From assembly GCF_017306545.1 (NCBI RefSeq), contig NZ_JAFKID010000028.1, positions 1-64,000 of the forward strand: a DNA stretch of 64,000 bases. The letters run 5' to 3'. The notes below the pieces were generated by a model, which saw only the letters and a list, made by a program, of their open reading frames with translations, searched no databases and was not told the origin of the DNA. The DNA is from Mesorhizobium sp. (GTDB lineage Bacteria > Pseudomonadota > Alphaproteobacteria > Rhizobiales > Rhizobiaceae). A program made the position numbers and the translations under genes. Of the stretch, positions 10,835-51,552 are shown piece after piece; position 1 is the stretch's first letter, and each line of letters begins with the position of its first letter.

Positions 10835-10850
10835 TTTGCTCCGGCGCAAA
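10835..10850. promoter_or_regulatory. NnrR-type box before RIC
   Basis: TTTGCTCCGGCGCAAA, flanked by C and G so that the arms CTTTGC and GCAAAG pair perfectly. It lies 93 bases before the RIC start at 10944. Confidence 0.72.
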
Positions 10851-10943
10851 GACGAGAACCGGAAATCGGCGATTCATGGACAGCGGTCGATATTCGACGG
10901 TTAGCCCGGTCGTATTCCTATTGAACATGCATGGAGCTTTGTC

Positions 10944-11639
10944 ATGAACACGCATATCCCCGGCCCGGAGCTTTGGGAGCGCACCGTCGGCGATATTGCC
11001 GCTACGGTTCCCGGCGCCACAGCGGTTTTCCGCAAGTACAAGATCGATTTTTGCTGCAACGGCGATCTCACCCTCGACAGCGCCGCCCAACGTCGCGGCG
11101 TCGATCCCGACGCGCTCGAACACGCATTGGAGGCTCTCGGCTCCGGCGACGCTGGAACAGCCGCCGCGACCGAGATGAGCAGCGATGAACTGATCGATCA
11201 TATCCAGTCCGGGTACCACGAGGCACACCGTCGCGCTCTTCCCGAGCTCATCACGCTGTCCCGGAAGGTCGAGGCCGTGCACCGCGAGCATCCGAAGGTA
11301 CCTGCCGGGCTCTCCGACGCGCTGCGGCAGATACAGAGCGAGCTGGAGCAGCATATGGCAAAGGAGGAGGCCATCCTGTTTCCAGCCATGCGCCAGTGGG
11401 CCAAGGGTAGTGTCGACATCCAGACCGCGGAGTTCCGGCACGAGCACGACGACCAGGGCACGCAACTTCGCCTGCTCGAAAGCCTCACCGACGACTTCAC
11501 CCTTCCCGAAGGCGCCTGTCGCTCGTGGCAGGCGCTCTATCTCGGCACGGCGCAGCTTGCCGAGGACCTGATGGAGCACATCCACCTGGAGAACAATGTC
11601 CTGTTCCCGAGGTTCGCGGCAACGGAAAGCCCTGTTTAG
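10944..11639 (+). CDS. ytfE: Iron-sulfur cluster repair di-iron protein (RIC/YtfE/ScdA)
   Basis: A 231-residue RIC protein, which restores Fe-S clusters damaged by NO and oxidants. An N-terminal ScdA-type domain (about 1-65) has YKIDFCCNGD with the conserved Cys pair. The hemerythrin-like C-terminal domain supplies the di-iron ligands: His in SGYHEAHRR, HMAKEEAILFP, FRHEHDD and MEHIHLENNVLFP. The NnrR-type box upstream links it to NO. It is followed by a ybaN gene after 32 bases. In denitrifiers this gene is also called dnrN or norA. Confidence 0.94.
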   Translation: MNTHIPGPELWERTVGDIAATVPGATAVFRKYKIDFCCNGDLTLDSAAQRRGVDPDALEHALEALGSGDAGTAAATEMSSDELIDHIQSGYHEAHRRALPELITLSRKVEAVHREHPKVPAGLSDALRQIQSELEQHMAKEEAILFPAMRQWAKGSVDIQTAEFRHEHDDQGTQLRLLESLTDDFTLPEGACRSWQALYLGTAQLAEDLMEHIHLENNVLFPRFAATESPV

Positions 11640-11671
11640 CCGCGCGGAGGGGAGTTGCCGGGAACGACGGT

Positions 11672-12028
11672 ATGCGGATCGTGTGGGTGATCGTCGGCTT
11701 GGCCAGCTTGATGCTGGCAGGATTGGGCGTGGCGCTGCCGCTGCTGCCGACGACACCCTTCGTCATCCTGGCGGCCTCCTGCTTCGCGCGCTCGTCGCCG
11801 GCCTTGCATGACCGGCTCCTCGGCAGTCGTGTGTTTGGCAAGGCGATCCGCGACTGGCGTGCACATCGCGCCATCAGCCGCAAGGGCAAGGCGGCCGGCG
11901 TGCTCGCCATGGCGTTGTCGCTGGCCGCTTCGTTCGTTCTCGCGGCAGATCTTATCATTATCGGTCTGCAAGCGTTGACGGTATCCGCCGCTGCCGCCTT
12001 CATCTTGACCCGTAACACCGCAGCATAA
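11672..12028 (+). CDS. YbaN family (DUF454) inner-membrane protein
   Basis: A 118-residue protein with two N-terminal and one or two C-terminal hydrophobic helices. GLGVALPLLPTTPFVILAASCFARSS is the family signature (here broken only by description: GVALPLLPTTPF followed by AASCFARSS). Function is unknown. It follows RIC closely and probably shares its NnrR-controlled transcript; YbaN genes are commonly found near denitrification or heme genes in alphaproteobacteria. Confidence 0.82.
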   Translation: MRIVWVIVGLASLMLAGLGVALPLLPTTPFVILAASCFARSSPALHDRLLGSRVFGKAIRDWRAHRAISRKGKAAGVLAMALSLAASFVLAADLIIIGLQALTVSAAAAFILTRNTAA

Positions 12029-12101
12029 GCAGATGTTCTCGCGCCGTAATCCGCAACGGCGGACTGTCACCGCCCTCTGCTTGCATTCACGGTATCTGCG
12101 T

Positions 12102-12542: not shown

Positions 12543-12556
12543 GATCGGCGCTGCCT

Positions 12557-14230: not shown

Positions 14231-14296
14231 GGTGAAAACCTGTTTGTGAAAGGTCGCAAACCGCCGCCGCGGCCTGCTTGCAGCAAGATCGCGCCG

Positions 14297-16113: not shown

Positions 16114-16542
16114 ATGAGACTGACGGATTTCTCCGACTATTCGCTGCGGCTACTCATGTACGCGGCGGTTCGGGCCGATCAGTTGATTACCATCGAGGAA
16201 ACTGCCCAGGTCTACGGAATCTCGCGCGCGCATCTCATGAAAGTGGCCAACCAGTTGACCCGAGCAGGTTTCCTGAAGGCGGTGCGAGGCCGCTCCGGCG
16301 GGCTGGCTCTCGCCATGCGACCCGAGCGCATCGGGTTGGGCGATGTATTGCGAGTGACCGAGCCGGACTTCGCCCTGGTCGAATGCTTCCGAAGCGACAA
16401 CCATTGCCTTATCACTCCGCGCTGTCGCCTGCGCGGCATGTTAAAGGAAGCGCTCGCCGCCTTCTCGGGGACGCTCGACCGCTACACTCTGGCCGATCTC
16501 CTACTCAGTCCCGAGGATTTCGGGATGCAGCCGGCAGCATAA
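16114..16542 (+). CDS. nsrR: Rrf2-family NO-sensing repressor NsrR
   Basis: A 142-residue Rrf2 regulator with an N-terminal winged helix-turn-helix (MRLTDFSDYSLRLLMY; TIEETAQVYGISRAHLMKV) and three Cys at 91, 98 and 104 (ECFRSDNHC, then ITPRCRL), the position of the NsrR Fe-S cluster ligands. The spacing C-x6-C-x5-C is close to known NsrR proteins. The recognisable AAGAT-type operators on both sides of the gene support NsrR over IscR or RirA. Loss of the cluster on NO exposure would derepress the divergent five-gene operon and the downstream ferredoxin unit. Confidence 0.86.
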   Translation: MRLTDFSDYSLRLLMYAAVRADQLITIEETAQVYGISRAHLMKVANQLTRAGFLKAVRGRSGGLALAMRPERIGLGDVLRVTEPDFALVECFRSDNHCLITPRCRLRGMLKEALAAFSGTLDRYTLADLLLSPEDFGMQPAA

Positions 16543-17583: not shown

Positions 17584-17599
17584 TTTGGCATTCCGCAAA
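17584..17599. promoter_or_regulatory. NnrR-type box before hemN
   Basis: TTTGGCATTCCGCAAA, 56 bases before the GTG start of hemN. The position is typical for class II/I activation and supports the hemN start at 17656. Confidence 0.68.
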
Positions 17600-19164: not shown

Positions 19165-19180
19165 TTTGCGCCAGAGCAAA
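19165..19180. promoter_or_regulatory. NnrR-type box before 19297 gene
   Basis: TTTGCGCCAGAGCAAA in the 288-base gap after hemN. It lies 116 bases before the ATG at 19297 and is the only visible reason to link that unknown gene to denitrification. Confidence 0.65.
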
Positions 19181-19296: not shown

Positions 19297-19674
19297 ATGA
19301 AGATTCTCGTGTCAGAGACAATGGCGCCGAGCCATAGGGCCGGCACGGAAAGGGATATTGTCGCGAGACTGACGGCGGTCGTGAAGAATGCGCGGCTCGA
19401 CTGCGAGTGCCGTTCCCAACTTGACGAGGCACTAGACCGGTTTGCAGCGATGGAGCGACGGCGTACGATCCGCAGCGATCTTTCCAAGGCCGGCAGCCAA
19501 CGCCGGAAGATCGAGGCGATCCTGCTTTTTCTCCAAGACCTGGATGATCTGAAAACGACGGAGCAGGACTACAGCGTGTTCAAGGACGTCGCGCTTCTCT
19601 TCGATGACATCGCCATCGCCGCCAAGGAAGGAGCGGAGGCGATGCGACGACTCTATTCGGCGAGCGAGGGATAG
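19297..19674 (+). CDS. Hypothetical helical protein under an NnrR box
   Basis: A 125-residue protein I do not recognise. It is soluble and helical with a Cys pair (DCECRSQLDEALDRF) and acidic segments (FLQDLDDLKTTEQDY; VALLFDDIAIAAKEGAE). No membrane segment or signal peptide. The start at MKILVSETM is preferred over an in-frame ATG seven codons earlier. It converges with the DUF2249 gene at 19956. The NnrR-type box upstream suggests a role during denitrification. Confidence 0.6.
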   Translation: MKILVSETMAPSHRAGTERDIVARLTAVVKNARLDCECRSQLDEALDRFAAMERRRTIRSDLSKAGSQRRKIEAILLFLQDLDDLKTTEQDYSVFKDVALLFDDIAIAAKEGAEAMRRLYSASEG

Positions 19675-19710: not shown

Positions 19711-19956
19711 TCATTCGCATCCGCATTCGGGAAGCGTCGATGATTTGCCTATCTCGATCTGCCAGTCCGGCGGCCCGCTCTGCAGGCACGTCCATTCGTA
19801 TCCTTCGGCGAAGAAGGCCCTGAACTTGCGCTCGAGGCGCGAGGGATCGAAGTCGCAGACCACCCGCACCGCCTCGCCGGCGTGCAAACCGTCGAACATC
19901 GACAGGATAGCGGCATCCTTGTTGGCTGAAGCCAGTCTGCGCACGTCATAGATCAT
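19711..19956 (-). CDS. DUF2249 protein (second copy)
   Basis: An 81-residue DUF2249 protein: MIYDVRRLAS, GEAVRVVCDFDPSRLERKF, then YEWTCLQSGPPDWQIEIGK. It has one Cys in VVCDFD and a Cys pair at the C-terminus (ECGCE), which the other copies lack. It is preceded by a perfectly palindromic NnrR box 63 bases upstream, whereas the first copy (15868) lies under NsrR. It stands alone. Confidence 0.82.
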   Translation of the reverse strand: MIYDVRRLASANKDAAILSMFDGLHAGEAVRVVCDFDPSRLERKFRAFFAEGYEWTCLQSGPPDWQIEIGKSSTLPECGCE

Positions 19957-20019: not shown

Positions 20020-20035
20020 TTTGCGAATCCGCAAA
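20020..20035. promoter_or_regulatory. NnrR-type box before DUF2249 gene
   Basis: TTTGCGAATCCGCAAA, flanked by C and G to make perfectly paired CTTTGCG and CGCAAAG arms. It lies 63 bases before the start at 19956. Confidence 0.75.
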
Positions 20036-22262: not shown

Positions 22263-22278
22263 GTTGACATTCCGCAAA
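22263..22278. promoter_or_regulatory. Variant NnrR-type box before ubiD
   Basis: GTTGACATTCCGCAAA matches the regulon pattern except for its first base, and its right half is identical to the hemN box. It lies 65 bases before the ubiD start. The mismatch makes it less certain than the others. Confidence 0.45.
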
Positions 22279-22612: not shown

Positions 22613-22743
22613 GACGACCTCCATGCGTCGCACTGAACTTCACGAAGAAAATCTACTCCAAAGCCGCGTCCCGAATCCATGTGTCCAGTCGCCGCGCCAT
22701 CTTGCTACGAGGGCGGCCGGCAGTGTGGTCCTTCGCACCCGTC

Positions 22744-22759
22744 TTTGATCCTGCGCAAA
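22744..22759. promoter_or_regulatory. NnrR-type box before ubiTUV
   Basis: TTTGATCCTGCGCAAA, 56 bases before the ubiT start and 131 before the divergent DUF6455 start. Confidence 0.72.
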
Positions 22760-22815: not shown

Positions 22816-23364
22816 ATGGCGGCAGGAAACGAAGAAATCAGTTTGCCGGCTTCGGCCCGGCGCCTTCTGCCGCCATTTGCCGCCGCTCCATTCGGCCCAC
22901 TGCTAACCCTTTCGTTGCGATCGCTTGCCCGGCGTCGCCCGGGTCTGTTCGAACGGCTCGGCGAACATAGTACCGCCCGCTTCTTGATCGATCCGACAGA
23001 CCTGTCCTTTGCCTTCAGCGTCGTGCCTGACGGTGCATCAGCTGTCGTCCGCGTCACCGGCAAGAGCGGCTCCGCTCCATCCGACGTGGTGATACGCGGT
23101 CCGCTGCTGACGCTGCTGGGCGTTCTCGACGGTACGCTGGACGGCGACGCAATGTTCTTCCACCGCGCCATCGCGGTCACCGGTAAGACCGAAGCCGTGG
23201 TGGCGCTGCGCAATGCCATCGAGGACGCAGAACTTCGCCCCTCCGACCTGCTCGGGCTGCGCGGCGTGCTCGCGCGGCTCGCCGACGCCGGCATCCTGGG
23301 CGGCCTCAGCGCGGCACGACACTTCGCAGCGGACGCGCCTGTCGCCAAGGCGGGGCAGGCATGA
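22816..23364 (+). CDS. ubiT: UbiT-like SCP2-domain lipid-binding protein
   Basis: A 182-residue SCP2 sterol-carrier-type protein. The N-terminal hydrophobic helix region (GPLLTLSLRSLARRRPGLF) precedes the SCP2 fold (ARFLIDPTDLSFAFSV; VVIRGPLLTLLGVLDGTLDGDAMFFHR). UbiT is the accessory factor of O2-independent ubiquinone synthesis in E. coli. The ATG has a perfect GGAGG site, and the stop overlaps the ubiU start (ATGA), so identity is supported by the ubiTUV order. Confidence 0.88.
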   Translation: MAAGNEEISLPASARRLLPPFAAAPFGPLLTLSLRSLARRRPGLFERLGEHSTARFLIDPTDLSFAFSVVPDGASAVVRVTGKSGSAPSDVVIRGPLLTLLGVLDGTLDGDAMFFHRAIAVTGKTEAVVALRNAIEDAELRPSDLLGLRGVLARLADAGILGGLSAARHFAADAPVAKAGQA

Positions 23365-24356
23365 GCGGCCGCATGGAACTGGTTTGCCCGGCGGGAACAC
23401 CGGCCACGCTCAGGGCCGCCGTGCTGGCGGGCGCGGACGCCGTCTATTGCGGCTTCCGTGACGAGACCAACGCCCGCAATTTCCCCGGCCTCAACTTCTC
23501 GCCGCAGGAGATGGCCGAAGGCATCCGTTTCGCACACGGCAACGGCAGCAAGGCCTTGGTCGCCATCAACACCTTCGCGCGGGCGGAGAACACGGACCTT
23601 TGGCGCAAGGCGGCGGACACGGCGGCGGTCTGCGGCGCGGACGCCGTCATCGCCGCCGACATCGCCGTGCTCGACCACATGGCGAACAACCACCCGCGCA
23701 CGCGCTTGCACCTTTCCGTACAGGCCGCCGCGGCGACGCCGGAAGCGATCAGTTTCTACGCGCAAGCATTCGGCGTGCGCCGCGTCGTACTGCCGCGCGT
23801 GCTTTCGGTGCAGGAGATCGCCGTGCTCAACCGGGCGATAGACGTGGAAACGGAAGCCTTCGTCTTCGGCGGCCTGTGCGTGATGATGGAAGGCCGCTGC
23901 CATCTGTCGTCCTACGCGACGGGCAAATCGCCCAATCTCAACGGCGTCTGCTCACCCCCCGAAGCGGTCAGCTACGTGGAGGACGCCGAAGGGACCACGG
24001 CGCGGCTGGCCGGCTTCACCATCGACCGCTTCGGCGCCGGGGAACCTGCGGGTTACCCAACGCTGTGCAAAGGCAGGTTCACGGCCGGGGACAAGACCGG
24101 CTACCTGTTCGAGGATCCAGTCAGCCTGAATGCCGGCAGCATGATCGTGGCGCTGAAGAGCGCCGGCGTCACCGCCCTCAAGATCGAGGGCCGCCAGCGC
24201 GGCAAGGGTTATGTCACCGAGGTGGTGCGCGCCTTCCGACGGGCGGTCGACGCAGCCGAGAGCGGCGGCGACCCGGTCGAGATTGACGGCATCCTGGCTG
24301 GCTTGTCCGAAGGCGGCCGGCAGACCACCGGCGCCTACCGCAAGACGTGGAGGTAG
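23361..24356 (+). CDS. ubiU: O2-independent ubiquinone hydroxylation protein UbiU
   Basis: A 331-residue U32-family protein. Cys 173, 180, 197 and 236 (GGLCVMMEGRCHLS; NGVCSPP; PTLCKGRF) match the four ligands of the [4Fe-4S] cluster in UbiU. With UbiV it forms the complex that hydroxylates ubiquinone precursors under anoxia using a non-O2 donor (prephenate in E. coli). It overlaps ubiT and is followed after 3 bases by ubiV. Confidence 0.93.
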   Translation: MSGRMELVCPAGTPATLRAAVLAGADAVYCGFRDETNARNFPGLNFSPQEMAEGIRFAHGNGSKALVAINTFARAENTDLWRKAADTAAVCGADAVIAADIAVLDHMANNHPRTRLHLSVQAAAATPEAISFYAQAFGVRRVVLPRVLSVQEIAVLNRAIDVETEAFVFGGLCVMMEGRCHLSSYATGKSPNLNGVCSPPEAVSYVEDAEGTTARLAGFTIDRFGAGEPAGYPTLCKGRFTAGDKTGYLFEDPVSLNAGSMIVALKSAGVTALKIEGRQRGKGYVTEVVRAFRRAVDAAESGGDPVEIDGILAGLSEGGRQTTGAYRKTWR

Positions 24357-24359
24357 GCC

Positions 24360-25259
24360 GTGCCATCGCTGAAGCTCACTTTGGGGCCGCTGTTCTTCCA
24401 TTGGCCGGCAGACCGGCTGTCGTCCTTCTACAACCGCGTCGCCGACGAAGCGCCGGTGGACCGCGTCCATGTCGGCGAGGTCGTCTGCGGCAAGCGCATG
24501 CCCTTCTCCGACCCGGCTTGGCCGGACATCATCGAACGGCTCGAGCGCGGCGGCAAGGAAGTCGTGCTCTCGACGCTGGCGGCGCCCGCCACGGTGCGGG
24601 AACGCCGCGCCGTCGAGGAGTTGTGCGCCGATGGCCGGCTGGTGGAGATCAACGACATCACCGCCCTGCCCCTCCGCTCCGGCAAGCCGTTTGTGACGGG
24701 ACCGTTCCTGAACGTCTACAACGAGGCTACGGCACGGTTCCTGGTCCGGCATGGCGCGCGCACCATCTGTCCGCCGGTCGAGATCTCGCTGGCGACGATC
24801 GGAGCGATCGCGACGGCATGTCCCGAAGCCGAATTCGAGATCTTCGCCTTCGGCCGGCTGCCATTGGCGCTGTCGGGGCGCTGCTACCATGCGCGGCTGC
24901 ACGGCCTCCACAAGGATTCATGCCAGTTCACCTGCGAACAGGACCCCGACGGGCTCGCCGTCGATACGCTCGACGGGCAGTCGTTCCTGGCGATCAACGG
25001 CGTGCAGACGCTTTCGGCACAGGTGCAGGCGGTCGTTCTCGATCCAGCAGAATTCGCCGCTTATGGCGTCCGCCGGCTGCGGCTGTCGCCGCACGGCTGC
25101 GACATGGTCGAGATAGCCCGCACCTACAGGGAACTTGTCGAGCAGCGGCTTGACCCGGACGGCGCGCGTTTCCTGCTGTCCTGTCTCGACCTGCCGGGTC
25201 CGATGGTCGATGGCTATGCCTGGGGCGAGGCCGGATCGCGGCCGCCGGTGGCGGTTTGA
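24360..25259 (+). CDS. ubiV: O2-independent ubiquinone hydroxylation protein UbiV
   Basis: A 299-residue U32-family partner of UbiU. Cys 43 (EVVCGKRMPFS), 175, 188 and 192 (SGRCYHARL; DSCQFTCEQ) reproduce the C...C-x12-C-x3-C arrangement of the UbiV cluster ligands. The start is GTG at 24360, three bases after ubiU. A molybdenum cofactor gene follows after 10 bases, likely in the same transcript. Confidence 0.92.
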   Translation: MPSLKLTLGPLFFHWPADRLSSFYNRVADEAPVDRVHVGEVVCGKRMPFSDPAWPDIIERLERGGKEVVLSTLAAPATVRERRAVEELCADGRLVEINDITALPLRSGKPFVTGPFLNVYNEATARFLVRHGARTICPPVEISLATIGAIATACPEAEFEIFAFGRLPLALSGRCYHARLHGLHKDSCQFTCEQDPDGLAVDTLDGQSFLAINGVQTLSAQVQAVVLDPAEFAAYGVRRLRLSPHGCDMVEIARTYRELVEQRLDPDGARFLLSCLDLPGPMVDGYAWGEAGSRPPVAV

Positions 25260-25269
25260 GGAGGGATAG

Positions 25270-34866: not shown

Positions 34867-34882
34867 TTTGATCCAACGCAAA
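34867..34882. promoter_or_regulatory. NnrR-type box before nosR and 34934 gene
   Basis: TTTGATCCAACGCAAA, 75 bases before nosR and 51 bases before the divergent ferritin-like gene. The right half matches CGCAAA and the left half carries the FNR-like TTTGAT. Confidence 0.73.
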
Positions 34883-35831: not shown

Positions 35832-35847
35832 TTTGCGCTGCATCAAA
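35832..35847. promoter_or_regulatory. NnrR-type box before pseudoazurin gene
   Basis: TTTGCGCTGCATCAAA, with the TTTGCG half on the left and the ATCAAA half on the right. It lies 69 bases before the pseudoazurin start at 35917. Confidence 0.72.
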
Positions 35848-35916
35848 GTTGACCGCGGAAGTCCGCTCTAGAAGGCGGTGCAACAAATGATTGCTGCACC
35901 GCAGAAAGGCAAGAGA

Positions 35917-39311: not shown

Positions 39312-39379
39312 CTCAAATCTCCTTCGTGAAGTTGTCCGTTTCTATGGCTCAGAGAATAATTGTTGCGCCGCACCCTTCT

Positions 39380-39395
39380 TTGATGCGGCGCAAAA
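39380..39395. promoter_or_regulatory. NnrR-type box before nirK
   Basis: TTTGATGCGGCGCAAA, 68 bases before the nirK start and 145 before the divergent nnrR start. A shadow sequence TTGTTGCGCCGCA precedes it but has no second complete half-site. Confidence 0.74.
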
Positions 39396-39540: not shown

Positions 39541-40245
39541 ATGAGCCGCCTCGATCGCTCACTGATCGCCCATATGGCGCCATTCGAGGGCTTGAACCCG
39601 GCGGAACTCGACCGCATGATCGGCCAGGCACGCGCGTTGCGCATTACCAAAGACCACGCGGTCTTCGAGCAGGAGCAGAACGCCCATTCCTTTTTTCTTT
39701 TGCTGGACGGATATGTGCGCGTCATCAAGACCACACCTGACGGTGAAGAAGTCATCGTGCGCTATATCAGTCCTGGCGAACTGATGGGCATCGCGAGCGC
39801 GCTCGGGCGCACCACCTATCCAGCCAGCGCCATCGCCGTCGTTGATTGCGTGGTGCTTGCGTGGCCGAGTGGCATGTGGTCCGAATTTGCTTCGGCTTTC
39901 CCGAATTTCGGCGCCAACACTTACCGGACCGTCGGCAACAGGCTGCAGGATGCCCACGCGCGCGTGGTCGAGATGTCAACGGAGCAGGTCGATCAGCGGG
40001 TTGCCCACGCCTTGCTCAAACTCGTGCGCCAGTCAGGCAAACGGACGGACGAGGGCCTTCTGATCGACTTTCCGCTTTCGCGGCAAGATATTGCGGAAAT
40101 GACCGGCACGACCTTGCATACGGTCAGCCGCCTTCTCACGGCCTGGGAGGAACAGGGCCTGGTAAGAAGCGGACGTCAGAAGGTGACTGTCGTCGAGCCG
40201 CATCGCCTGCTCATGCTCGCTGAAGGCCGGACGGAGAAGACATAA
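39541..40245 (+). CDS. nnrR: NnrR-like Crp/Fnr regulator of NO and denitrification genes
   Basis: A 234-residue Crp/Fnr protein: cyclic-nucleotide-type sensory domain (about 20-130), long dimerisation helix, and C-terminal helix-turn-helix LSRQDIAEMTGTTLHTVSRLL (about 179-199; quoted here as LSRQDIAEMTG and TTLHTVSRLL). There is no N-terminal Cys cluster, only Cys103, so it is not an oxygen-sensing FNR. In the recognition helix, FNR's Glu (VETISR) is replaced by His193, with Ser196 and Arg197 kept. It is divergent from nirK, the classical location. I infer that it binds the TTTGCG-type boxes. Confidence 0.88.
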   Translation: MSRLDRSLIAHMAPFEGLNPAELDRMIGQARALRITKDHAVFEQEQNAHSFFLLLDGYVRVIKTTPDGEEVIVRYISPGELMGIASALGRTTYPASAIAVVDCVVLAWPSGMWSEFASAFPNFGANTYRTVGNRLQDAHARVVEMSTEQVDQRVAHALLKLVRQSGKRTDEGLLIDFPLSRQDIAEMTGTTLHTVSRLLTAWEEQGLVRSGRQKVTVVEPHRLLMLAEGRTEKT

Positions 40246-41079: not shown

Positions 41080-41105
41080 TGCTGTCTCCGGTTCGTCTGT
41101 CGTCA

Positions 41106-42666: not shown

Positions 42667-42682
42667 TTTGTTTAAGCGCAAA
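42667..42682. promoter_or_regulatory. NnrR-type box before NnrS-like gene
   Basis: TTTGTTTAAGCGCAAA, in the 262-base gap between the parvulin stop (42727) and the NnrS-like start (42464), 202 bases upstream of the latter. The left half is a weaker match. Confidence 0.6.
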
Positions 42683-42726: not shown

Positions 42727-43446
42727 TTACTGCACCAGCGGCGATTCGCTCGCCTCGAGCTGAACCCCCTCGATCTCGGCCTGTCCGGCGAGAACGCTGA
42801 CATACTGGCGCAGCGCTTTTTCCTCTACGCGGGATCGAAGCCGCGCGGCGATCTGTTCCTGGACGACGTCGAACGGCAGCCTGTGGCCCGGAATGCGCTG
42901 GTCGACGGCGACGATGTGGAAACCGTAGCGCGTCTTGACCAGTTCGCGCAGGATTCCCGAGGCGCCGAACTTGAACACGGCCCTCTCGAATTCCGGCAGC
43001 ATGTCGCCGCGCCCGATCTGTCCGAGATTGCCGCCCTGTTGGCCGGACGGGCAGTTGGACAGCTCCGCCGCGAGCGCCGTGAAACGGTCCGGCTTGGCCA
43101 ACAACTCGTTCAGCGCCTGCTCGGCGCGCGCTCGCATCTGTGGCACGTTCACCTGCGGCGTCACCTGGAACAGGATGTGGCGAGCATAGACGAGATCGCC
43201 GCTCTCGAACTCGGTTGGATTCTGCTCGTAGTAGCGGCGGCACTCGGCCTCGGTGGGAACCGGCGTCGCCACTTCCTTCTCCAGCAGCGCCTCAATCGCA
43301 CCGTCGATCTCTGCTTTGCCCTCGACAGCCGCGTCAAGCAGGCCGACCTCCACCGCCCGTTGCCGCAGCAATTCGTGCGCGGCGGCGAATTCCGCCGGGG
43401 CATCGGCCTCGACCGCCACCGCCATGCCGTTCACCGACAGGATCAT
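42727..43446 (-). CDS. nar-operon parvulin-type peptidyl-prolyl isomerase
   Basis: A 239-residue protein with a parvulin core: YARHILFQVTPQV, ALNELLAKPDRFTALAAELSNCPS, GNLGQIGRGDMLPEFERAVF and FGFHIVAVDQRIPG-type C-terminal strands (in the sequence TRYGFHIVAVD). There is no signal peptide, so it acts in the cytosol. It overlaps narI by ATGA. A parvulin/NifM-like gene at the end of narGHJI also occurs in Pseudomonas. A role in NarGH maturation is inferred. Confidence 0.85.
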   Translation of the reverse strand: MILSVNGMAVAVEADAPAEFAAAHELLRQRAVEVGLLDAAVEGKAEIDGAIEALLEKEVATPVPTEAECRRYYEQNPTEFESGDLVYARHILFQVTPQVNVPQMRARAEQALNELLAKPDRFTALAAELSNCPSGQQGGNLGQIGRGDMLPEFERAVFKFGASGILRELVKTRYGFHIVAVDQRIPGHRLPFDVVQEQIAARLRSRVEEKALRQYVSVLAGQAEIEGVQLEASESPLVQ

Positions 43447-44162
43447 GGCCGCGTCGGCTCTTCGGCGCGGGTCTTCGGCGTACGCACGATCTGGTAGGGC
43501 CGGAACAGATAAGAGAGCGCCCCTGCCCCGCTCCAGATATGGATCATGCGCGTGAACGGCGAGACCAGGAACAGCGTGAAGCCGAGCAGGATGTGCAGCT
43601 TGTAGGTGAGCGGCACGCCGATCATCAGCGCCGCCGCGCCGCCGTCGAGCGTGACGATGCCCTTGACGTAGCCGGTCAGCGTCTCGAACAGCTCACCGTC
43701 CATGTGGAAGGCTGATAGCGGCACTGTCAGCAGGCCGAGCAGAAGCTGAAGCCACAGCATAAAGGTGATGGCGATGTCCCATTTGCGGCTGTTGAGGCGG
43801 ATGCGCGGGTCGGAGAGCCGCCGGTGGATGAGGATCGTCAGGCCGGCGATGGCGGTCAGCCCGGCAATGCCGCCCACCACCATGGCCAGTAACTGGTGGG
43901 CGACCGGCGACAATGCCCAGTCCACTGCCCAGTGCGGCGCGAGGAAGCCCGCGAAATGGCCGAGGATGACGATGATGACACCGTAGTGGAAGAGGTTTGA
44001 GCCGAGGCGCAGTTCGCGCTTGCGCAGCATCTGCGAGGAATCGCTTTTCCAGGTGTAGGGCTCACGATCGAAGCGGATGAGGCTACCGATCAGCAGCACG
44101 ACGAGGCATATATAGGGGTAGACCCCAAACAGCAGCGTGTTGACGTAGGAATTGGCGAGCAT
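43443..44162 (-). CDS. narI: Respiratory nitrate reductase gamma subunit NarI
   Basis: A 239-residue di-heme cytochrome b membrane subunit that oxidises quinol. It has five helices, beginning YVNTLLFGVYPYICLVVLLIG and including LGSNLFHYGVIIVILGHFAG and the late TYKLHILLGFTLFLVSPF with the paired heme His residues. It couples quinol oxidation to NarGH. It lies between narJ and the parvulin gene. Confidence 0.95.
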   Translation of the reverse strand: MLANSYVNTLLFGVYPYICLVVLLIGSLIRFDREPYTWKSDSSQMLRKRELRLGSNLFHYGVIIVILGHFAGFLAPHWAVDWALSPVAHQLLAMVVGGIAGLTAIAGLTILIHRRLSDPRIRLNSRKWDIAITFMLWLQLLLGLLTVPLSAFHMDGELFETLTGYVKGIVTLDGGAAALMIGVPLTYKLHILLGFTLFLVSPFTRMIHIWSGAGALSYLFRPYQIVRTPKTRAEEPTRP

Positions 44163-44177
44163 GAGGAGCCTCCTTCC

Positions 44178-44807
44178 CTATCGGGCCGTGGAACCGCCGC
44201 CGGATGGGCCGGCGTCGGCAAAGGCGGGCCGTTCGGCCCAGTCGCGGTCGAGCATATCCGCCGGTTCCCGGACCGGCTTCACGTCCACTGCCTCCAGCGG
44301 CTTCTCGCCGGCGATGACGAGAAGCGCCTGCGGCACGGCCGCATAGCGGCTCTGCCGCGCCAACAGCGAACGGGCGATGGAGGCAAGGATCTTCGCGCAG
44401 TCGGCAAGCATGTCGCGGGCCTCCGCCATGTCGCGCTGACTCAGATATTCCAGCACCACCGGCAGGTAGTCGGGCAATTCCGAAGCGGTCAGCTCGAAAC
44501 CGGCGGCGGCGTAGAGCGCCTTCAGTTCGACCATCGCGGCGCCACGGTCTCGGCCGTCGCCGTGTAGGTGTTCGAACAGATGGAGGGAAAGCGCTCGGCC
44601 GCGGTCGAACAAATTGACGTAGCGCTCCTCCGCCGCCAGCAGGTCGCCCTCGCCAATTTCGCCGACAAGGGCAATCAGGCCCTCGCGTTGATGCGTACCG
44701 ACGAGCTTCGAGGCGCGCACTACCTCCGCGATCTCGGGCAGGGCCTGTCGCATCTCGGCGCTCGGGTAGGAAAGCAGCGCACTGAACGCCTTGAAGATCA
44801 GCATCAT
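44178..44807 (-). CDS. narJ: Nitrate reductase chaperone NarJ
   Basis: A 209-residue cytosolic chaperone of the NarJ/TorD fold: FKAFSALLSYPSAEMRQAL, then LSLHLFEHLHGDGRDRGAAMVEL and ELPDYLPVVLEYLSQR, the last matching the family ELPDxLPvxLE motif. It binds apo-NarG for cofactor insertion. It starts 7 bases before narH ends downstream, that is, narH and narJ are almost contiguous. Confidence 0.95.
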   Translation of the reverse strand: MMLIFKAFSALLSYPSAEMRQALPEIAEVVRASKLVGTHQREGLIALVGEIGEGDLLAAEERYVNLFDRGRALSLHLFEHLHGDGRDRGAAMVELKALYAAAGFELTASELPDYLPVVLEYLSQRDMAEARDMLADCAKILASIARSLLARQSRYAAVPQALLVIAGEKPLEAVDVKPVREPADMLDRDWAERPAFADAGPSGGGSTAR

Positions 44808-44814
44808 GCTGCCC

Positions 44815-46347
44815 TCACGTATCCAGTGGCCGGAACGGGGTCAGCTTGCGCCGCCCCATCTTGCCACCGAACAGCGAGGAATGCGGCGGACCGTAGTCGC
44901 AGCCGTTGCCGAAGGTGAAACCGCAGGAACCCTTCAGCCCGTAGGCGTCCTCCGCCTCCTCGCGGTGGCTGGTGGGGATGACGAAGCGGTCCTCGTAGTT
45001 GGCGATGGCGAGGTAGCGGTGCATGTCCTCAACCTGCGCCTTCGTCAGCCCGGCCTGCTCCAGCACGGCCGCGCCGTCGCCTTCGCCCAATTGCCGCTGG
45101 CGGAAGTAGATGCGCATGGCCAGCATCCGCTCAAGCGCCGAAACGATCGGGGCCTCCGCGCCGGCGGTGAGCAGGTTGGCGAGATAGCGCACCGGGATGC
45201 GCAGCGAGCGCACATCGGGGATGTCGCCGACCGTATCAATCGCGCCAGCATTGGCGTGCGACTGGATCGGCGACAGCGGCGGCACGTACCAGACCATCGG
45301 CAGCGTGCGGTATTCGGGATGGAGCGGGAAGGCGATCTTCCACTCCACCGCCATCTTATAGGCAGGCGAGCGCTTGGCCGCCTCGATCCAGTTGTCGGCG
45401 ATGCCGTCGGCGCGGGCCTGTTCCACCACCGCCGGATCGTTAGGGTCGAGGAACAGCTTCAACTGCGCCTCGTAAAGGTCCTGTTCGTCCTCGACGGACG
45501 CGGCCTTCTCGATGCCGTCGGCGTCGTAGAGAAGCACGCCGAGATAACGGATGCGGCCAACGCAGGTTTCAGAGCACACCGTCGGCTGGCCCGCCTCGAT
45601 GCGCGGATAGCAGAAGATGCACTTCTCCGCTTTTCCCGAGGTCCAGTTGTAATAGATTTTCTTGTAGGGGCAGCCCGACACGCACATGCGCCAACCCCGG
45701 CACTTGTCCTGGTCGATGAGGACGATGCCGTCCTCCTCACGCTTGTAGATCGAGCCGGACGGGCAGGAGGCGACGCAGCTCGGGTTGAGGCAGTGCTCGC
45801 ACAGCCGCGGCAGGTACATCATGAAGGTATTCTCGAACTGCCCGTAAATGTCCTTCTGCACCGCCTCGAAATTGTAGTCCTGGCTGCGCTTGTCGAACTC
45901 GCCGCCGAGAATCTCCTCCCAGTTCGGGCCCCACTCGATCTTCTCCATCGGCCTGCCGGTGACGAGCGACAACGGCCGCGCGACCGGCGCGGTCGGCAGT
46001 TCGGGCGCCTTCTGCAGGTGCTCGTAGTCGAAGGTGAAGGGCTCGTAATAGTCGTCGATCTCGGGCAGGTTCGGATTGGCGAAGATGTTGGCGAGCACGG
46101 CCAGCTTGCCGCCCTGCTTCGGCACGATCTTACCGTTCTTCCTGCGCTTCCAGCCGCCCTTCCAGCGCTCCTGGTTCTCCCAGTCCTTGGGATAACCGAT
46201 GCCGGGCTTGGTCTCGACATTGTTGAACCAGGCGTATTCCATGCCCTGCCGCGAGGTCCACACCTGCTTGCAGGTGACGGAGCAGGTATGGCAGCCGATG
46301 CACTTGTCGAGGTTGAGCACCATCGCGATCTGCGCGCGGATCTTCAT
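44815..46347 (-). CDS. narH: Respiratory nitrate reductase beta subunit NarH
   Basis: A 510-residue iron-sulfur subunit. Four Cys clusters are visible: CIGCHTCSVTCKQVW, CEHCLNPSCVASCP, CRGWRMCVSGCP and CIFCYPRIEAGQPTVCSETC, with the Trp for Cys change in CRGWRMC that gives the [3Fe-4S] cluster. The start overlaps the narG stop (ATGA). The frame upstream of MKIRAQIAMVL is the narG end and is not included. Confidence 0.97.
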   Translation of the reverse strand: MKIRAQIAMVLNLDKCIGCHTCSVTCKQVWTSRQGMEYAWFNNVETKPGIGYPKDWENQERWKGGWKRRKNGKIVPKQGGKLAVLANIFANPNLPEIDDYYEPFTFDYEHLQKAPELPTAPVARPLSLVTGRPMEKIEWGPNWEEILGGEFDKRSQDYNFEAVQKDIYGQFENTFMMYLPRLCEHCLNPSCVASCPSGSIYKREEDGIVLIDQDKCRGWRMCVSGCPYKKIYYNWTSGKAEKCIFCYPRIEAGQPTVCSETCVGRIRYLGVLLYDADGIEKAASVEDEQDLYEAQLKLFLDPNDPAVVEQARADGIADNWIEAAKRSPAYKMAVEWKIAFPLHPEYRTLPMVWYVPPLSPIQSHANAGAIDTVGDIPDVRSLRIPVRYLANLLTAGAEAPIVSALERMLAMRIYFRQRQLGEGDGAAVLEQAGLTKAQVEDMHRYLAIANYEDRFVIPTSHREEAEDAYGLKGSCGFTFGNGCDYGPPHSSLFGGKMGRRKLTPFRPLDT

Positions 46348-49300
46348 GATGCGGCCTCCTCGGCAACCGGATCGACGGGATTGGAATGGTCGAGCCACTC
46401 GACCTTGACGAGCTTGCGCACCACGACGAATTCGTCGCGGTTGGAGCCGACCGTTCCGTAGTAGTTGAAGCCGTAGGAAAGCTGCGCGTAGCCGCCGACC
46501 ATGTGTGTGGGTTTCAGGACCGTGCGGGTCACCGAATTGTGGATGCCGCCGCGCTGGCCGGTGATCTGCGATCCCGGCACGTTCACGATCTTCTCCTGCG
46601 CATGGTACATCATGCACATGCCTTCCTGCACACGCTGGCTGACCACGGCGCGCGCCGCGATCGCGCCGTTCAGGTTGAAGAGCTCGATCCAGTCGTTGTC
46701 GATGATGCCGGCCTTCTTCGCATCCGTCTCCGATATCCAGACGATCGGCCCGCCGCGCGAGAGCGTCAGCATGATGAGGTTGTCAGTATAGGTGGAGTGG
46801 ATGCCCCATTTCTGGTGCGGGGTGATGAAGTTGAGGATGATCTCGGTTTCGCCGTTCGCCTTCTTGCCGAGCATGGCGGCGGCCGTGCGCGTGTCGATCG
46901 GCGGCCGATAGACGGCAAAGCTCTCGCCGAAGTCGCGGAACCAGCGGTGGTCCTGGTAGAACTGCTGGCGGCCGCTGATCGTGCGCCAGGGAATCAGCTC
47001 GTTCACGTTGGTGTAGCCGGCCGTGTAAGAGACGTGCTCGCTCTCGATGCCTGACCATGTCGGCGAAGAAATGATCTTGCGCGGCTGTGCCTGGATATCC
47101 CGGAACCGGATTTTCTCGTCCTCACGCGTCTCGGCGAGATGCGCGTGGTCGCGCCCGGTGATTTTCCCCAGCGCTTCCCAGGCCTTCACCGCCACTTCGC
47201 CGTTCGTTTCCGGCGCGAGGTACATAATGGTTTCCGCAGCATCGATGTCGGTGTCGATGCGCGGCCGCCCGTCCGTCGGGCCACCGTCATTCACGCGGTG
47301 GTTCAGTGCGCCGAGTCCTTTCACCTCGGCCTCGGTGTTCCACGCTATGCCCTTGCCGCCATTGCCGAGCTTGTCGGCAAGCGGTCCAAGCGCAGTGTAG
47401 CGGCGGTACGTGTTTGGATAGTCTCGCTCGACGACCGCGATCTGCGGCGCGGTGACGCCTGGCACGAGATCGCATTCGCCTTTCTTCCAATCCTGCACCT
47501 CGAAGGGCTGGGCGATCTCGGCCGGAGTGTCGTGCTGGATCGGGGTGAGCACCACGTCGCGCTCGACGCCGAGATGGCCCTCGGCCAGTTCGGAGAAGCG
47601 TTTGGCGATGGCCTTGTAGGTTTCCCAGTCGCTTTTCGCCTCCCATACCGGGTCCACCGCCGCCGACAGCGGATGGATGAAGGGATGCATGTCGGAGGTG
47701 TTGAGGTCGTTCTTCTCGTACCAGGTGGCGGTCGGCAGCACGATGTCGGAATAGAGGCAGCTCGTCGACATGCGGAAGTCGAGCGTGACGACGAGGTCGA
47801 GCTTGCCTTCAGGCGCCGGGTCGCGCCACTCGACCTCGGTCGGCTTCTCGCGCCCTTCCTCGCCCAAATCCTTCCCTTGCAAGCCGTGCCGCGTGCCGAG
47901 AAAATGGCGCAGGAAATATTCGTGTCCCTTGCCCGACGAGCCGAACAGGTTCGAGCGCCAGATGAACAGGTTGCGCGGGAAGTTGACCGGATTATCCGGG
48001 TCCTCGCAAGCCATGGCGAGCTTGCGCGATTTGAGGCCGGCGACGACATGGTCCCTGACCTCGGCGCCCGCCTTGTCGGCATCCCCCGCCAGCGTCAACG
48101 GGTTGACGTTGAGCTGCGGTGCCGAGGGCAGCCAGCCCATGCGCTCGGCCCGGACGTTGAGGTCGATCATCGAGCCGCGATAGGGCGCGGGATCCGCGAG
48201 CGGCGACAGGAGTTCCGAGACGTCCAGCTTCTCGTAGCGCCATTGGTCGGAGTGGGCGTAGAAGAAGGAGGTTCCGCACATATGGCGCGGCGGCCGAACC
48301 CAGTCGAGCGCAAAGGCGAGCATCGTCCAACCGGTTTGTGGCCTGAGCTTCTCCTGCCCGACATAATGCGCCCAGCCGCCACCGGACACGCCGACCGTGC
48401 CGCATAGCATCAGCATATTGATGATCGAGCGGTAGCCCATGTCCTGGTGGTACCAGTGGTTCATGCCTGCCCCGATGATGACCATCGAGCGGCCTTTGGT
48501 CTTTTCGGCGTTCTTCGCGAAGCCGCGCGCGACCTCTATCGCATGGGCGGCCGAAACGCCGGTGATCTTCTCCTGCCAGGCGGGTGTGTAGGGCACGTTG
48601 TCATCAAAACCCTTGGCGCAATCGCCGCCGAGGCCGCGGTCGAGCCCGTAGTTGGCGCACAAAAGGTCGAAGACGGTGGCGACGTAGCTCTCGCCGTCCG
48701 CCAGCTTGACGCGCCGCACCGGCACGTTGCGCTGAAGCACGTCGCCGCCCTGGTCGTTGCCGACAAAGTGCGGGTGCGGCATGCCGCCGAAATACGGAAA
48801 TGCCACCGGCAGCACGTCGTCTCGCCGGTCGATCAGGCTGAGACCGAGACGCACGTCAGTGCCCGTCTCGCCGTCCTTCTCTTCCAGATTCCAGCGGCCC
48901 TTAGGTTCGCCGTCCGCCGGCCAGCGATAACCCATCGATCCCTGCGGCACGACGAGGTCGCCGCTCTCCTCCGCCACAGCCACTGTCTTCCACGCGGCCC
49001 GGTCCGATTTCGGCGCCTTGCCGCGCGACTTCTTCTCGCCGGCAAGGTCGCTCTGGCGAACGTAGCGGTCAGGTATGAAACGGTCGCCGTCTTTCCTCAG
49101 CCGAACCAGCATCGGCAAGTCGGTCAGACGGCGGCAGTAGTCCTCGAAATAGGGCGTCTTGCGGTCGAGGAAGAATTCCTTGAGCACGACGTGGCCCATG
49201 GCCATGGCAAGTGCGGCGTCCGTGCCCTGCTTGGGGTGCAGCCACAGATCCGAAAGCTTCGCCACCTCGGAATAGTCGGGCGTGACGGCCACGACATTGG

Positions 49301-50123
49301 TGCCGTTGTAGCGCGCCTCGACGAAGAAATGCGCGTCGGGCGTGCGCGTCTGCGGCACGTTCGAGCCCCAGGCGATGATGTAGCCGGAATTATACCAGTC
49401 GGCCGATTCCGGCACGTCGGTCTGCTCGCCCCAGGTCTGCGGCGAGGACGGCGGCAGGTCGCAATACCAGTCGTAGAAGGAAAGAAGCGTGCCTCCGATG
49501 AGGCTCAGATAGCGCGCGCCGGAAGCGTATGACACCATCGACATGGCTGGGATCGGCGAGAAGCCGACGACACGGTCCGGACCGAATGTCTTCACCGTGT
49601 GCACGTTGGCGGCGGCGATGATCTCGGTCGCTTCGGCCCAGGTCGAGCGCACGAAGCCGCCACGCCCGCGGATCGCCTTGTAGGCTTTCGCCGTCTTCTC
49701 GTCGGCGGTGATGGCGGCCCACGCTTCGACGGGTCCAAGCGTCTTGCGCGCCTCGCGCCACGCCTTGACCAGGCGCCCGCGCACCATCGGATACTTGATA
49801 CGGCTGGCGCTGTAGAGATACCAGCTATAGGACGCGCCGCGCGAGCAGCCGCGCGGCTCGTGGTTGGGCATACCCGGCCGCGTGCGCGGATAGTCCGTCT
49901 GCTGCGTTTCCCAGGTGACGACGCCGCTCTTGACGTAGATCTTCCACGAACAGGAGCCGGTGCAGTTCACGCCATGGGTGGAGCGCACGATCTTGTCGTG
50001 CTGCCAGCGTTGCCGGTAGCCCTCCTCCCATAGCCGATCCTCGTCGCGCAACTCGCCATGGCCGTCGGCAAAGGGTTCGCGTCGCCGGGAAAGGTAGGTC
50101 AGGCGTTCGAGGAAGTGGCTCAT
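46344..50123 (-). CDS. narG: Respiratory nitrate reductase alpha subunit NarG
   Basis: A 1259-residue cytosol-facing Mo-bis-MGD enzyme. The [4Fe-4S] ligands His50, Cys54, Cys58 and Cys93 (HGVNCTGSC; RGCSRG) and the Mo ligand Asp222 (YCDLPP) are at the same positions as in E. coli NarG. The length is normal for the family (1247 in E. coli). It follows narK by 24 bases in one transcript. Confidence 0.97.
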   Translation of the reverse strand: MSHFLERLTYLSRRREPFADGHGELRDEDRLWEEGYRQRWQHDKIVRSTHGVNCTGSCSWKIYVKSGVVTWETQQTDYPRTRPGMPNHEPRGCSRGASYSWYLYSASRIKYPMVRGRLVKAWREARKTLGPVEAWAAITADEKTAKAYKAIRGRGGFVRSTWAEATEIIAAANVHTVKTFGPDRVVGFSPIPAMSMVSYASGARYLSLIGGTLLSFYDWYCDLPPSSPQTWGEQTDVPESADWYNSGYIIAWGSNVPQTRTPDAHFFVEARYNGTNVVAVTPDYSEVAKLSDLWLHPKQGTDAALAMAMGHVVLKEFFLDRKTPYFEDYCRRLTDLPMLVRLRKDGDRFIPDRYVRQSDLAGEKKSRGKAPKSDRAAWKTVAVAEESGDLVVPQGSMGYRWPADGEPKGRWNLEEKDGETGTDVRLGLSLIDRRDDVLPVAFPYFGGMPHPHFVGNDQGGDVLQRNVPVRRVKLADGESYVATVFDLLCANYGLDRGLGGDCAKGFDDNVPYTPAWQEKITGVSAAHAIEVARGFAKNAEKTKGRSMVIIGAGMNHWYHQDMGYRSIINMLMLCGTVGVSGGGWAHYVGQEKLRPQTGWTMLAFALDWVRPPRHMCGTSFFYAHSDQWRYEKLDVSELLSPLADPAPYRGSMIDLNVRAERMGWLPSAPQLNVNPLTLAGDADKAGAEVRDHVVAGLKSRKLAMACEDPDNPVNFPRNLFIWRSNLFGSSGKGHEYFLRHFLGTRHGLQGKDLGEEGREKPTEVEWRDPAPEGKLDLVVTLDFRMSTSCLYSDIVLPTATWYEKNDLNTSDMHPFIHPLSAAVDPVWEAKSDWETYKAIAKRFSELAEGHLGVERDVVLTPIQHDTPAEIAQPFEVQDWKKGECDLVPGVTAPQIAVVERDYPNTYRRYTALGPLADKLGNGGKGIAWNTEAEVKGLGALNHRVNDGGPTDGRPRIDTDIDAAETIMYLAPETNGEVAVKAWEALGKITGRDHAHLAETREDEKIRFRDIQAQPRKIISSPTWSGIESEHVSYTAGYTNVNELIPWRTISGRQQFYQDHRWFRDFGESFAVYRPPIDTRTAAAMLGKKANGETEIILNFITPHQKWGIHSTYTDNLIMLTLSRGGPIVWISETDAKKAGIIDNDWIELFNLNGAIAARAVVSQRVQEGMCMMYHAQEKIVNVPGSQITGQRGGIHNSVTRTVLKPTHMVGGYAQLSYGFNYYGTVGSNRDEFVVVRKLVKVEWLDHSNPVDPVAEEAAS

Positions 50124-50147
50124 CTGGCTATTCCTTTCCCATGCGTA

Positions 50148-51416
50148 TCAGGCTTGCGAGGCTGTCGGCGGTGCCGCCTCCCCGCCTATGACGGTCTCAC
50201 CCATCACCGGGGCGCGTCGCACCTCGGTCAGGTAGTTCAGGATGAGCGACACCCAGACGATGCCATAGAGCAGCATGAAGCAGCTCGAATTGACGCCCAG
50301 CCGGTCGAGGATGGCGCCGAACATGATCGGCAGCAAGAAACCGCCGAGGCCGCCAGCCATGCCGACAATGCCGGACACTGCGCCCATGTTTTCGGGAAAG
50401 TCGTCGCCGATGTATTTGAAGGTCGAGGCCATGCCGCAGGCAAACGCGATGCCGAGCACGAACAGGAGCACGGTGAAAAACCAAGCCGGCAGCGCAATAC
50501 CGAAGCTGGCCGGGCCGTTGACCGTATGGATGGTCAGTTCCGTCTTCGGGTAGGACAGCAGGAACAGGCAAATCCAGGCGATCCACAGCACCCACCAGGT
50601 GACGTTATGTGCACCGAAACGGTCGGATAGCCAGCCACCGAAGGCGCGGAAAACACCAGCCGGCAGCGCGAAAGCGACCGCGAGAAGCGAGGCCTGCGCG
50701 ATGGAAAGCCCATATTCGGACTTGAAATATTGCGGCATCCAGATCGACAGCGCCGTGAAGCCGCCGAAGACGATGGAGTAGTACTGGCAATATTTCCACA
50801 CCCGCGGATCGCGCAGGACCGCGAGTTGCGAGAGCATCGACGGCGAGGTCGCCGCCCGCGCCGGATCGGGCGCGGAGAATATCCAGAAGGTCGCGGCGGT
50901 GATCACAAGCGCGACGGCATAGACCTTTGGTACCGTCTGCCAGCCGTAGGCGCCGATCAGCCATGGTGCCACGAACATGTTGAGTGCCGCGCCCACCGTA
51001 CCGGCACCGAAGAAGCCCATGGCAAAACCGCGCTTCTCCTTCGGAAAGAAACGCGCCACATACGGCGTACCGACCGAGAAGGACGCGCCGACCAGCCCGA
51101 GCGCCAGCCCAAGCAGGATGAAATGCCATAGCGTCGTGGCATATGACGAAATCCACACCGGCACGGCGCAGCATAGAAGCAGTGCCAACATCAGGCGGCG
51201 TCCGCCGAGGCGGTCGGTCCAGATACCCAAGGGAAGTCGGAACAGTGCGCCGGTCAAGACGGGCGTTGCGGTGAGAAGGCCGAATTCCATCGAGCTCAGT
51301 CCAAGCTGCTCGCGGATCGGGATGCCGGTGACGCCGAACATCATCCACACGGCGAAGCAGATGGTGAACGCCCAGGTGGTGGCGAGCAGAACGATGAAGC
51401 TTCGCACTCCCGACAT
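50148..51416 (-). CDS. narK: Nitrate/nitrite transporter NarK
   Basis: A 422-residue major facilitator protein with 12 helices. Nitrate-porter signatures are present: MMFGVTGIPIREQLGLSSMEF (split), PLGIWTDRLGGRRLM, PYVARFFPKEKRGFAMGFFGAG and AVSGIVGMAGGLGGFLLP (nitrate signature AGLGG-type). The ATG at 51416 excludes an upstream frame that runs through the operator. It is a single NarK rather than a NarK1-NarK2 fusion; a H+/nitrate symport or nitrate/nitrite exchange mode cannot be decided. Confidence 0.93.
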   Translation of the reverse strand: MSGVRSFIVLLATTWAFTICFAVWMMFGVTGIPIREQLGLSSMEFGLLTATPVLTGALFRLPLGIWTDRLGGRRLMLALLLCCAVPVWISSYATTLWHFILLGLALGLVGASFSVGTPYVARFFPKEKRGFAMGFFGAGTVGAALNMFVAPWLIGAYGWQTVPKVYAVALVITAATFWIFSAPDPARAATSPSMLSQLAVLRDPRVWKYCQYYSIVFGGFTALSIWMPQYFKSEYGLSIAQASLLAVAFALPAGVFRAFGGWLSDRFGAHNVTWWVLWIAWICLFLLSYPKTELTIHTVNGPASFGIALPAWFFTVLLFVLGIAFACGMASTFKYIGDDFPENMGAVSGIVGMAGGLGGFLLPIMFGAILDRLGVNSSCFMLLYGIVWVSLILNYLTEVRRAPVMGETVIGGEAAPPTASQA

Positions 51417-51536
51417 CACACCCCTGCAGCAGCCAGTGGACCGTAATGGTGAGCTGTCGGCTGAATCCACGACAGTGGATGACCGACTTGGAGACCACTC
51501 TATCGGGAAGCGATATGCAATGACAAGTTTGGTTTC

Positions 51537-51552
51537 TTTGCGTTTTCGCAAA
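51537..51552. promoter_or_regulatory. NnrR-type box before narK
   Basis: TTTGCGTTTTCGCAAA, a fully symmetric TTTGCG/CGCAAA pair. It lies 120 bases before narK and 181 before the divergent DUF6455 gene at 51734. Confidence 0.74.

Follow-up and report, generated by a model that had tools for sequence, protein, structure and literature searches.

Putative NnrR operators in a Mesorhizobium denitrification island, four of them predicted to be read by FixK as well

In alphaproteobacteria, the consensus ctTTGcgnnnncgCAAag has been described for the operators of the regulator NnrR, and the core regulon comprises nir, nos, nnrS and hemN genes and the COG4309 family (Rodionov et al. 2005, PMC1274295). 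The NnrR targets cited for Sinorhizobium meliloti are nirK, norC, azu1, hemN and nnrS (PMC6710368). In Bradyrhizobium diazoefficiens, induction of nosR requires its box TTGATCCAGCGCAA (PMC5582078), and FixK2 activates nosR in vitro, but not norC with its box TTGCGCCCTGACAA (PMC6710368). We analysed a stretch of 64,000 nucleotides from Mesorhizobium sp. (contig NZ_JAFKID010000028.1, positions 1 to 64,000; hereafter the window), in which an island of anaerobic respiration genes carries repeated copies of a 16-bp box, TTTG-N8-CAAA. The consensus is the same as that of the NnrR core regulon. We interpret the boxes as likely NnrR operators, of which the four copies with a TTGAT half are predicted to be read by FixK too, and we assign this interpretation a probability of roughly 0.72. 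Unlike in the described core regulon, norCBQD were not found in this genome, ubiTUV and ubiDX are predicted members, and four boxes have a TTGAT half. The NnrR regulon and its motif have been known since 2005; the predicted ubiTUV and ubiDX members, the site at 9015 by a YitT-family gene and the half-sites graded by gene are additions.

The window (63.4% G+C) contains 11 exact copies of TTTG-N8-CAAA against 0.46 expected, and none of 100 shuffled sequences reached 11. A sequence-only reading of this DNA had listed ten sites and one variant, and the repeat is confirmed. The sites that it placed at 10835, 17584, 19165, 20020, 22744, 34867, 35832, 42667 and 51537 are exact, that given as 39380 begins at 39379, the variant at 22263 has one mismatch as described, and an eleventh exact box, at 9015, had been overlooked. 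The boxes are not, as had been stated, mostly TTTGCG-N4-CGCAAA: this form is exact in only two of the 11 (20020 and 51537), with one mismatch at 10835 and 19165 and two in the other seven. The whole genome (4,818,058 bases, 66 contigs) has 33 copies of TTTG-N8-CAAA compared with 21 of the reversed pattern, so the boxes beyond the island are probably chance occurrences for the most part. The density in the window is nevertheless far above that of the other 4.75 Mb, where 22 boxes are found (0.30 expected in the window at the outside density; Poisson, 3e-14), and a TTTGCG half is present in 11/11 window boxes compared with 7/22 outside boxes (Fisher, 1.7e-4).

Nine of the 22 outside boxes lie inside open reading frames (ORFs) in a rough gene call, one of them only through the over-long start of a second pseudoazurin gene. 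The seven with a TTTGCG half include a symmetric box at this second pseudoazurin gene and one at a second narG; the others are found by genes for glutamate-cysteine ligase, polyhydroxybutyrate depolymerase and a sigma factor, and two are inside ORFs. The second narG, identified by eye through its similarity to the narG of the window, lies on contig C38 (L016, 3900-7842) with TTTGCGCTTGAACAAA about 0.2 kb upstream, and a gene for a 204-residue protein and moeA are close by. The box TTTGTTCCCGCGCAAA, about 40 bp upstream of the glutamate-cysteine ligase gene (L025, 8085), may be a chance occurrence or a link to nitric oxide (NO) defence, and either may hold.

We then assigned the window boxes to target genes, with gene starts inferred to be close to the onset of the family matches. 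Two boxes are symmetric and NnrR-type: TTTGCGAATCCGCAAA (20020..20035), upstream of a DUF2249 gene (19711-19956, minus strand), and TTTGCGTTTTCGCAAA (51537..51552), 74 bp upstream of narK (50148-51470, minus), which is followed on the same strand by narG-H-J-I and a peptidyl-prolyl isomerase gene. The overlooked box TTTGTCCGAACGCAAA (9015..9030) lies 58 bp upstream of the YitT-family gene (8338-8964, minus). A RIC/YtfE-type iron-sulfur repair gene (10944-11639, plus) is preceded by TTTGCTCCGGCGCAAA (10835..10850), hemN (likely start 17656, plus) by TTTGGCATTCCGCAAA (17584..17599) and a hypothetical gene (19276 or 19297 to 19674, plus) by TTTGCGCCAGAGCAAA (19165..19180), while TTTGTTTAAGCGCAAA (42667..42682) is found upstream of a gene for a 452-residue membrane protein (41106-42464, minus) and a DUF2249/TusA gene (40555-41106, minus). 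We take DUF2249 to be the same family as COG4309. The mixed boxes, which pair TTGAT and CGCAA halves, are TTTGATCCTGCGCAAA (22744..22759), upstream of ubiT-ubiU-ubiV-mog (22816-25806, plus); TTTGATCCAACGCAAA (34867..34882), between nosR (minus, likely start 34791) and a rubrerythrin/ferritin-domain gene (34934-35782, plus); TTTGCGCTGCATCAAA (35832..35847), upstream of pseudoazurin (35878 or 35887 to 36360, plus); and TTTGATGCGGCGCAAA (39379..39394), 75 bp upstream of nirK (38193-39311, minus) and between nirK and nnrR. The variant GTTGACATTCCGCAAA (22263..22278) is also mixed (TTGAC and CGCAA halves), its one mismatch being at the outer T, where GTTG replaces TTTG; it stands 73 bp upstream of ubiD (20677-22197, minus) and ubiX (20120-20692, minus).

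Measured downstream from the box centre, a plausible start codon is reached after 58-84 bp in 8 of the 12 targets; the distance is otherwise 101 bp for RIC, 103-124 bp for the hypothetical gene, 38-47 bp for pseudoazurin and 210 bp for the 452-residue protein. With starts placed in this way, the earlier statement that no site falls in coding sequence stands; taken at their over-long ORF starts, hemN, DUF2249, nosR and narK overlap their boxes. The ubiD and hemN boxes have CATTCCGCAAA in common, and hemN boxes elsewhere read CTTGGCATTTCGCAAA in Aminobacter (L100), TTTGGCATATCGCAAA on plasmid pB2-1-8 and TTGACATAACGCAA at B. diazoefficiens hemN1.

The boxes are conserved in relatives. A TTG-N8-CAA box is found at nirK (105/108 loci, median position -72) and also at norC (21/24), nosR (38/44), ubiT (22/27) and pseudoazurin (45/46). 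The nirK sample covers 29 of 55 other genomes and 80 further loci, a few of which are the same contigs, and the NosR sample covers 29 of 95 other NosR-bearing genomes. Copies from the genome itself (L066, L068, L206, L224, L253) were excluded from the counts, as were nirK L131 and pseudoazurin L093, whose upstream sequence was too short, NosR L221 and L222 (partial or distant) and UbiU L252 (partial). On large Mesorhizobium and Aminobacter plasmids, the same set of respiration genes is found in reshuffled order (L265, L266, L267, L268), with nnrR among the boxes as in the window and with no nirK annotated in these stretches. The comparison of coding with intergenic density proposed by the sequence-only reading was made in these four stretches (Mesorhizobium sp. 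B2-1-8 and B2-1-1, M. loti NZP2037 and Aminobacter sp. SR38) and came out as it had anticipated, with 28 copies of TTTG-N8-CAAA between annotated genes (38.8 kb) and one inside them (161.2 kb); the 28 is an upper figure because the gene table is incomplete and a few copies may fall in unlisted genes, one of them (L266) where ubiU is expected. On pSymA of S. meliloti (L264), nirK, nnrS, hemN and pseudoazurin have TTTG-N8-CAAA beside them, and it also occurs at the norC position.

The protein that reads the box is most probably the NnrR encoded at 39541..40245 (plus strand), because the box fits the published consensus and is found upstream of nirK in nearly all related loci. This CRP/FNR-family protein matches PF00027 (cyclic-nucleotide-binding domain) and PF13545 (Crp-type helix-turn-helix), both over the cut-off; among the NCBIfam models, FixK, CRP and FNR are below the cut-off and no NnrR model is among the matches. 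It is 50% identical to the product of the S. meliloti 1021 pSymA gene adjoining nirK, which, from its position, is presumably the experimentally studied nnrR. A search of the genome for CRP/FNR helix-turn-helix domains gave 20 matches, 10 of them over the cut-off, and the six best are full-length CRP/FNR-type proteins: the NnrR of the window, an NnrR-like protein on contig C35, two FixK-type proteins (C43 and C32) and two others. The recognition helix is GTTLHTVSR in the NnrR of the window and the same in the C35 protein; G[TAS]TLHTVSR is found in 64 of 70 NnrR proteins of relatives, in contrast to GLTIETVSR in both FixK-type proteins of the genome. The letters of the half-site are reported to be set by recognition-helix residues 180 and 181 (PMC1274295). 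By our alignment of the helices to CRP positions 180, 181 and 185, made by eye, NnrR has Leu-His and FixK has Ile-Glu, so NnrR is expected to read TTGCG and FixK TTGAT. The second nnrR on C35 is divergent from nnrS, with the mixed box GTTGCGCCGGATCAAA between them (L059, 11165-13293).

The NnrR regulon proposed by the sequence-only reading is thus well supported by comparison, through the consensus, the presence of nnrR among the targets and the conserved boxes; the idea of one uniform motif is not, as a FixK-type half, which we defined as TTGAT or TTGAC, occurs in 4 of the 11 boxes (five sites if the 22263 variant is counted), suggesting that some of them may belong to FixK, jointly or exclusively. 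TTGAT-N4-CGCAA is found 13 times in the genome and its reversed control once. Of the nine copies outside the window, two fall within ORFs and a third overlaps the start of one; the rest include boxes at nnrS and the second nnrR, at a fixK gene with a kinase gene, and at universal stress protein genes. Strict TTGAT-N4-ATCAA is absent from the window and is found five times in the genome, compared with none for the reversed control. The loose FixK consensus TTG(A/C)-N6-(T/G)CAA fits at 10836, 19166, 20021, 22264, 22745, 34868, 35833, 39380 and 51538, boxes of both types, so it cannot by itself separate FixK from NnrR boxes.

Among distinct boxes of relatives, those identical including their flanks being counted once, the frequency of FixK-type halves depends on the gene: 0/21 at norC, 6/98 at nirK, 7/42 at pseudoazurin, 20/38 at nosR and 14/20 at ubiT, where about 23% would be expected were the two bases random. 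The p value is 7e-9 for nosR against nirK and 2e-9 for ubiT against nirK. Of 29 same-family nosR loci, 27 carry a box, which has a FixK-type half in 14. Comparison within single genomes points the same way, with a FixK-type half at ubiT and none at nirK in 11 of 15 genomes and the reverse in one (p 0.006), and with 9 against 0 of 11 for ubiT and norC (p 0.004). The mixed nosR box recurs in pB2-1-8, pML2037, pSR7 and Aminobacter ciceronei; on pB2-1-1, the box closest to nosR, with TTGCG and TTGAC halves, is by the ferritin gene at a distance of some 300 bp. The ubiT boxes of relatives range from FixK-type through mixed to NnrR-type. A mixed box as a conserved rule at nirK was considered and, given the 6/98 in relatives, rejected.

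The dual reading of the mixed boxes by NnrR and FixK is a prediction. From what is known of the family, NnrR would bind the boxes and activate with NO present, and the TTGAT half would be the part read by FixK. Symmetric or TTGCG-only boxes, such as those of narK-narGHJI and DUF2249, would then answer to NO alone, whereas the mixed boxes at ubiTUV, nosR, pseudoazurin and nirK would answer to low oxygen, to NO or to both. The genes for quinone supply, the electron carrier and nitrous oxide (N2O) reduction would switch on as oxygen falls, and NO would boost them. A mixed box may be occupied by either homodimer in turn or, most boldly, by an NnrR-FixK heterodimer. Since the NnrR and FixK palindromes are equal in length and differ by two bases per half, one promoter can hold one half of each. 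Tentatively, mixed operators might even be a general device of alphaproteobacterial anaerobic respiration, in which control by oxygen and by NO is swapped through two-base changes, and nosR and ubiTUV keep an intermediate state that lets quinone supply and N2O reduction start ahead of NO.

Several observations weigh against this interpretation. Genome-wide, the excess of boxes over the reversed control is modest. When the comparisons within genomes are collapsed to genera, the preference of ubiT over nirK falls to 5 against 1 (p 0.22) and that of ubiT over norC to 5 against 0 (p 0.06), and nosR against nirK within genomes gives 2 against 0 of 5. The TTGAT half at nirK is itself not conserved, as its low frequency in relatives indicates. 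The box at 42667 is far from its target, and a second copy of that target gene, on C35, has no box in 700 bp. The B. diazoefficiens papers supply the strongest counter-evidence. In this species, FixK2 activates nirK in vitro although the nirK box has no FixK-type half (PMC6710368), and thus the half-site code is not strict. In the same bacterium, the loss of nosR expression in an nnrR mutant was ascribed to NO toxicity and judged indirect, and NnrR binding is reported for norCBQD only (PMC6710368); together, these speak against NnrR reading the mixed nosR box.

The alternative that survives best is that the mixed boxes are plain FixK operators tolerating one TTGCG half, with NnrR having no direct part at ubiTUV, nosR, pseudoazurin and nirK. 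The published FixK2 consensus already admits CG in this place, FixK2 by itself is enough for activation at the mixed nosR box in vitro, and other mixed boxes of the genome are found by universal stress protein genes and by fixK. On the other hand, boxes at the same spots in relatives are mostly NnrR-type without a FixK-type half (92/98 at nirK, 35/42 at pseudoazurin), and the norC and narK-type boxes need another reader. We therefore regard this alternative as possible but doubtful. Conversely, all boxes might be NnrR operators whose TTGAT halves arose by neutral drift in the weaker half, FixK having no direct part. The retention of one TTTGCG half in every window box and the wide variation of the weak halves at nirK among relatives are consistent with drift, but FixK-type halves graded by gene are not expected from it, and AT is found in 4 of 9 weak halves of the window (p 0.0015 at even odds, in a test chosen after the sites had been seen). 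This explanation seems unlikely to us.

We consider it very improbable that another regulator reads the boxes, either an Rrf2/NsrR-like protein or another CRP/FNR protein (C40 or C39). An Rrf2-family gene does lie inside the island (16114..16542, plus strand), and its product, which is below the NsrR and RirA cut-offs, is a possible second regulator with no box assigned; the genome also has the six full-length CRP/FNR-type genes. However, the box has the two-half form of CRP/FNR operators and the published NnrR letters, and nnrR adjoins a box both here and in the plasmid islands. Rrf2/NsrR motifs generally look different from it. That the boxes are chance repeats in GC-rich sequence, an idea to which the mere eight fixed bases of the shortened pattern and the genome-wide 33 against 21 lend something, is refuted by the 11 copies against 0.46 expected in the window and by the conservation at orthologous genes.

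The genes of the island were identified mostly by NCBIfam, with matches for RIC, hemN, UbiX, UbiD, UbiU, UbiV, NosR, NosZ, NosD, pseudoazurin, NirK, NarGHJI and a NarK-family protein. They include nirK for copper nitrite reductase, nosR (32446..34791, minus, start inferred) and, in its operon, nosZ for a twin-arginine-translocation (TAT)-dependent nitrous-oxide reductase (30496..32427, minus), narG, narH, narJ and narI for respiratory nitrate reductase (43443..50123, minus) and ubiT-ubiU-ubiV for O2-independent ubiquinone synthesis (22816..25259, plus); mog is also in the island. DUF2249 was assigned through Pfam. Most target labels of the sequence-only reading hold in this way, except that DUF6455 (22340-22633) is under the cut-off (E 0.0049, 17.4 bits against 23.7) and ubiT rests on its position and an SCP2 match. 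Its label "NnrS-like" for the gene at 41106-42464 is not supported, as no NCBIfam, Pfam (including NnrS, PF05940) or PDB match was found; the Pfam NnrS gene of this genome (378 bits) is on C35, adjoining the second nnrR. An Rfam scan of the window gave no matches, and no RNA features were thus found.

The 452-residue protein shares 97% identity with a protein of M. composti, and another copy of it, about 65% identical, is encoded close to the second nnrR (L059, 15218-16564, C35). Two of 120 listed relatives carry PF00115. The genome has nirK, nosZ and narGHJI, but a NorB query gave no match and no norCBQD were found; PF00115 has three matches over the cut-off in the genome, and the NorB query is positive in 24 of 56 nirK-bearing genomes. 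The 452-residue protein as a stand-in NO reductase was rejected: it is found in 10 of these 56 genomes, 5 of which also have NorB, with no sign of replacement.

If the predicted dual reading is correct, whether a denitrification gene answers to oxygen, to NO or to both would be predictable from the letters of a 14-base box, and so would the timing of N2O production and removal by a soil bacterium. The boxes of nosR, for N2O removal, would be open to the oxygen signal, and those of norC, for N2O formation, never, judging from the 21 boxes examined. O2-independent ubiquinone synthesis would also join the alphaproteobacterial denitrification regulon. Our literature search found no paper joining UbiU with NnrR and, in the parts of the texts available, no description of mixed NnrR/FixK half-sites, including PMC5398030 and PMC4999443 and the FixLJ-FixK2-NnrR papers (PMC5582078, PMC6710368).

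The island can be compared with three further known systems. In Escherichia coli, the O2-independent ubiquinone genes ubiUVT are under a CRP/FNR-family activator with TTGAT half-sites, as predicted here (PMC10470549); the activator there is Fnr, whereas the ubiT boxes in relatives of the window range from FixK-type to NnrR-type. In S. meliloti, boxes are found on pSymA at the cited NnrR target genes, and NnrR has half of its residues in common with that of the window. B. diazoefficiens offers what we consider the strongest outside support. Its nosR box belongs to the mixed kind, differs by one base from that of the window and is essential, while its norC box is TTGCG-type and its hemN1 box resembles the hemN and ubiD boxes of the window; its nirK box, TTGTTGCAGCGCAA, has no FixK-type half, unlike the mixed nirK box of the window. 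There, FixK2 activates nosR in vitro but not norC, and norC is the only promoter for which NnrR binding is reported.

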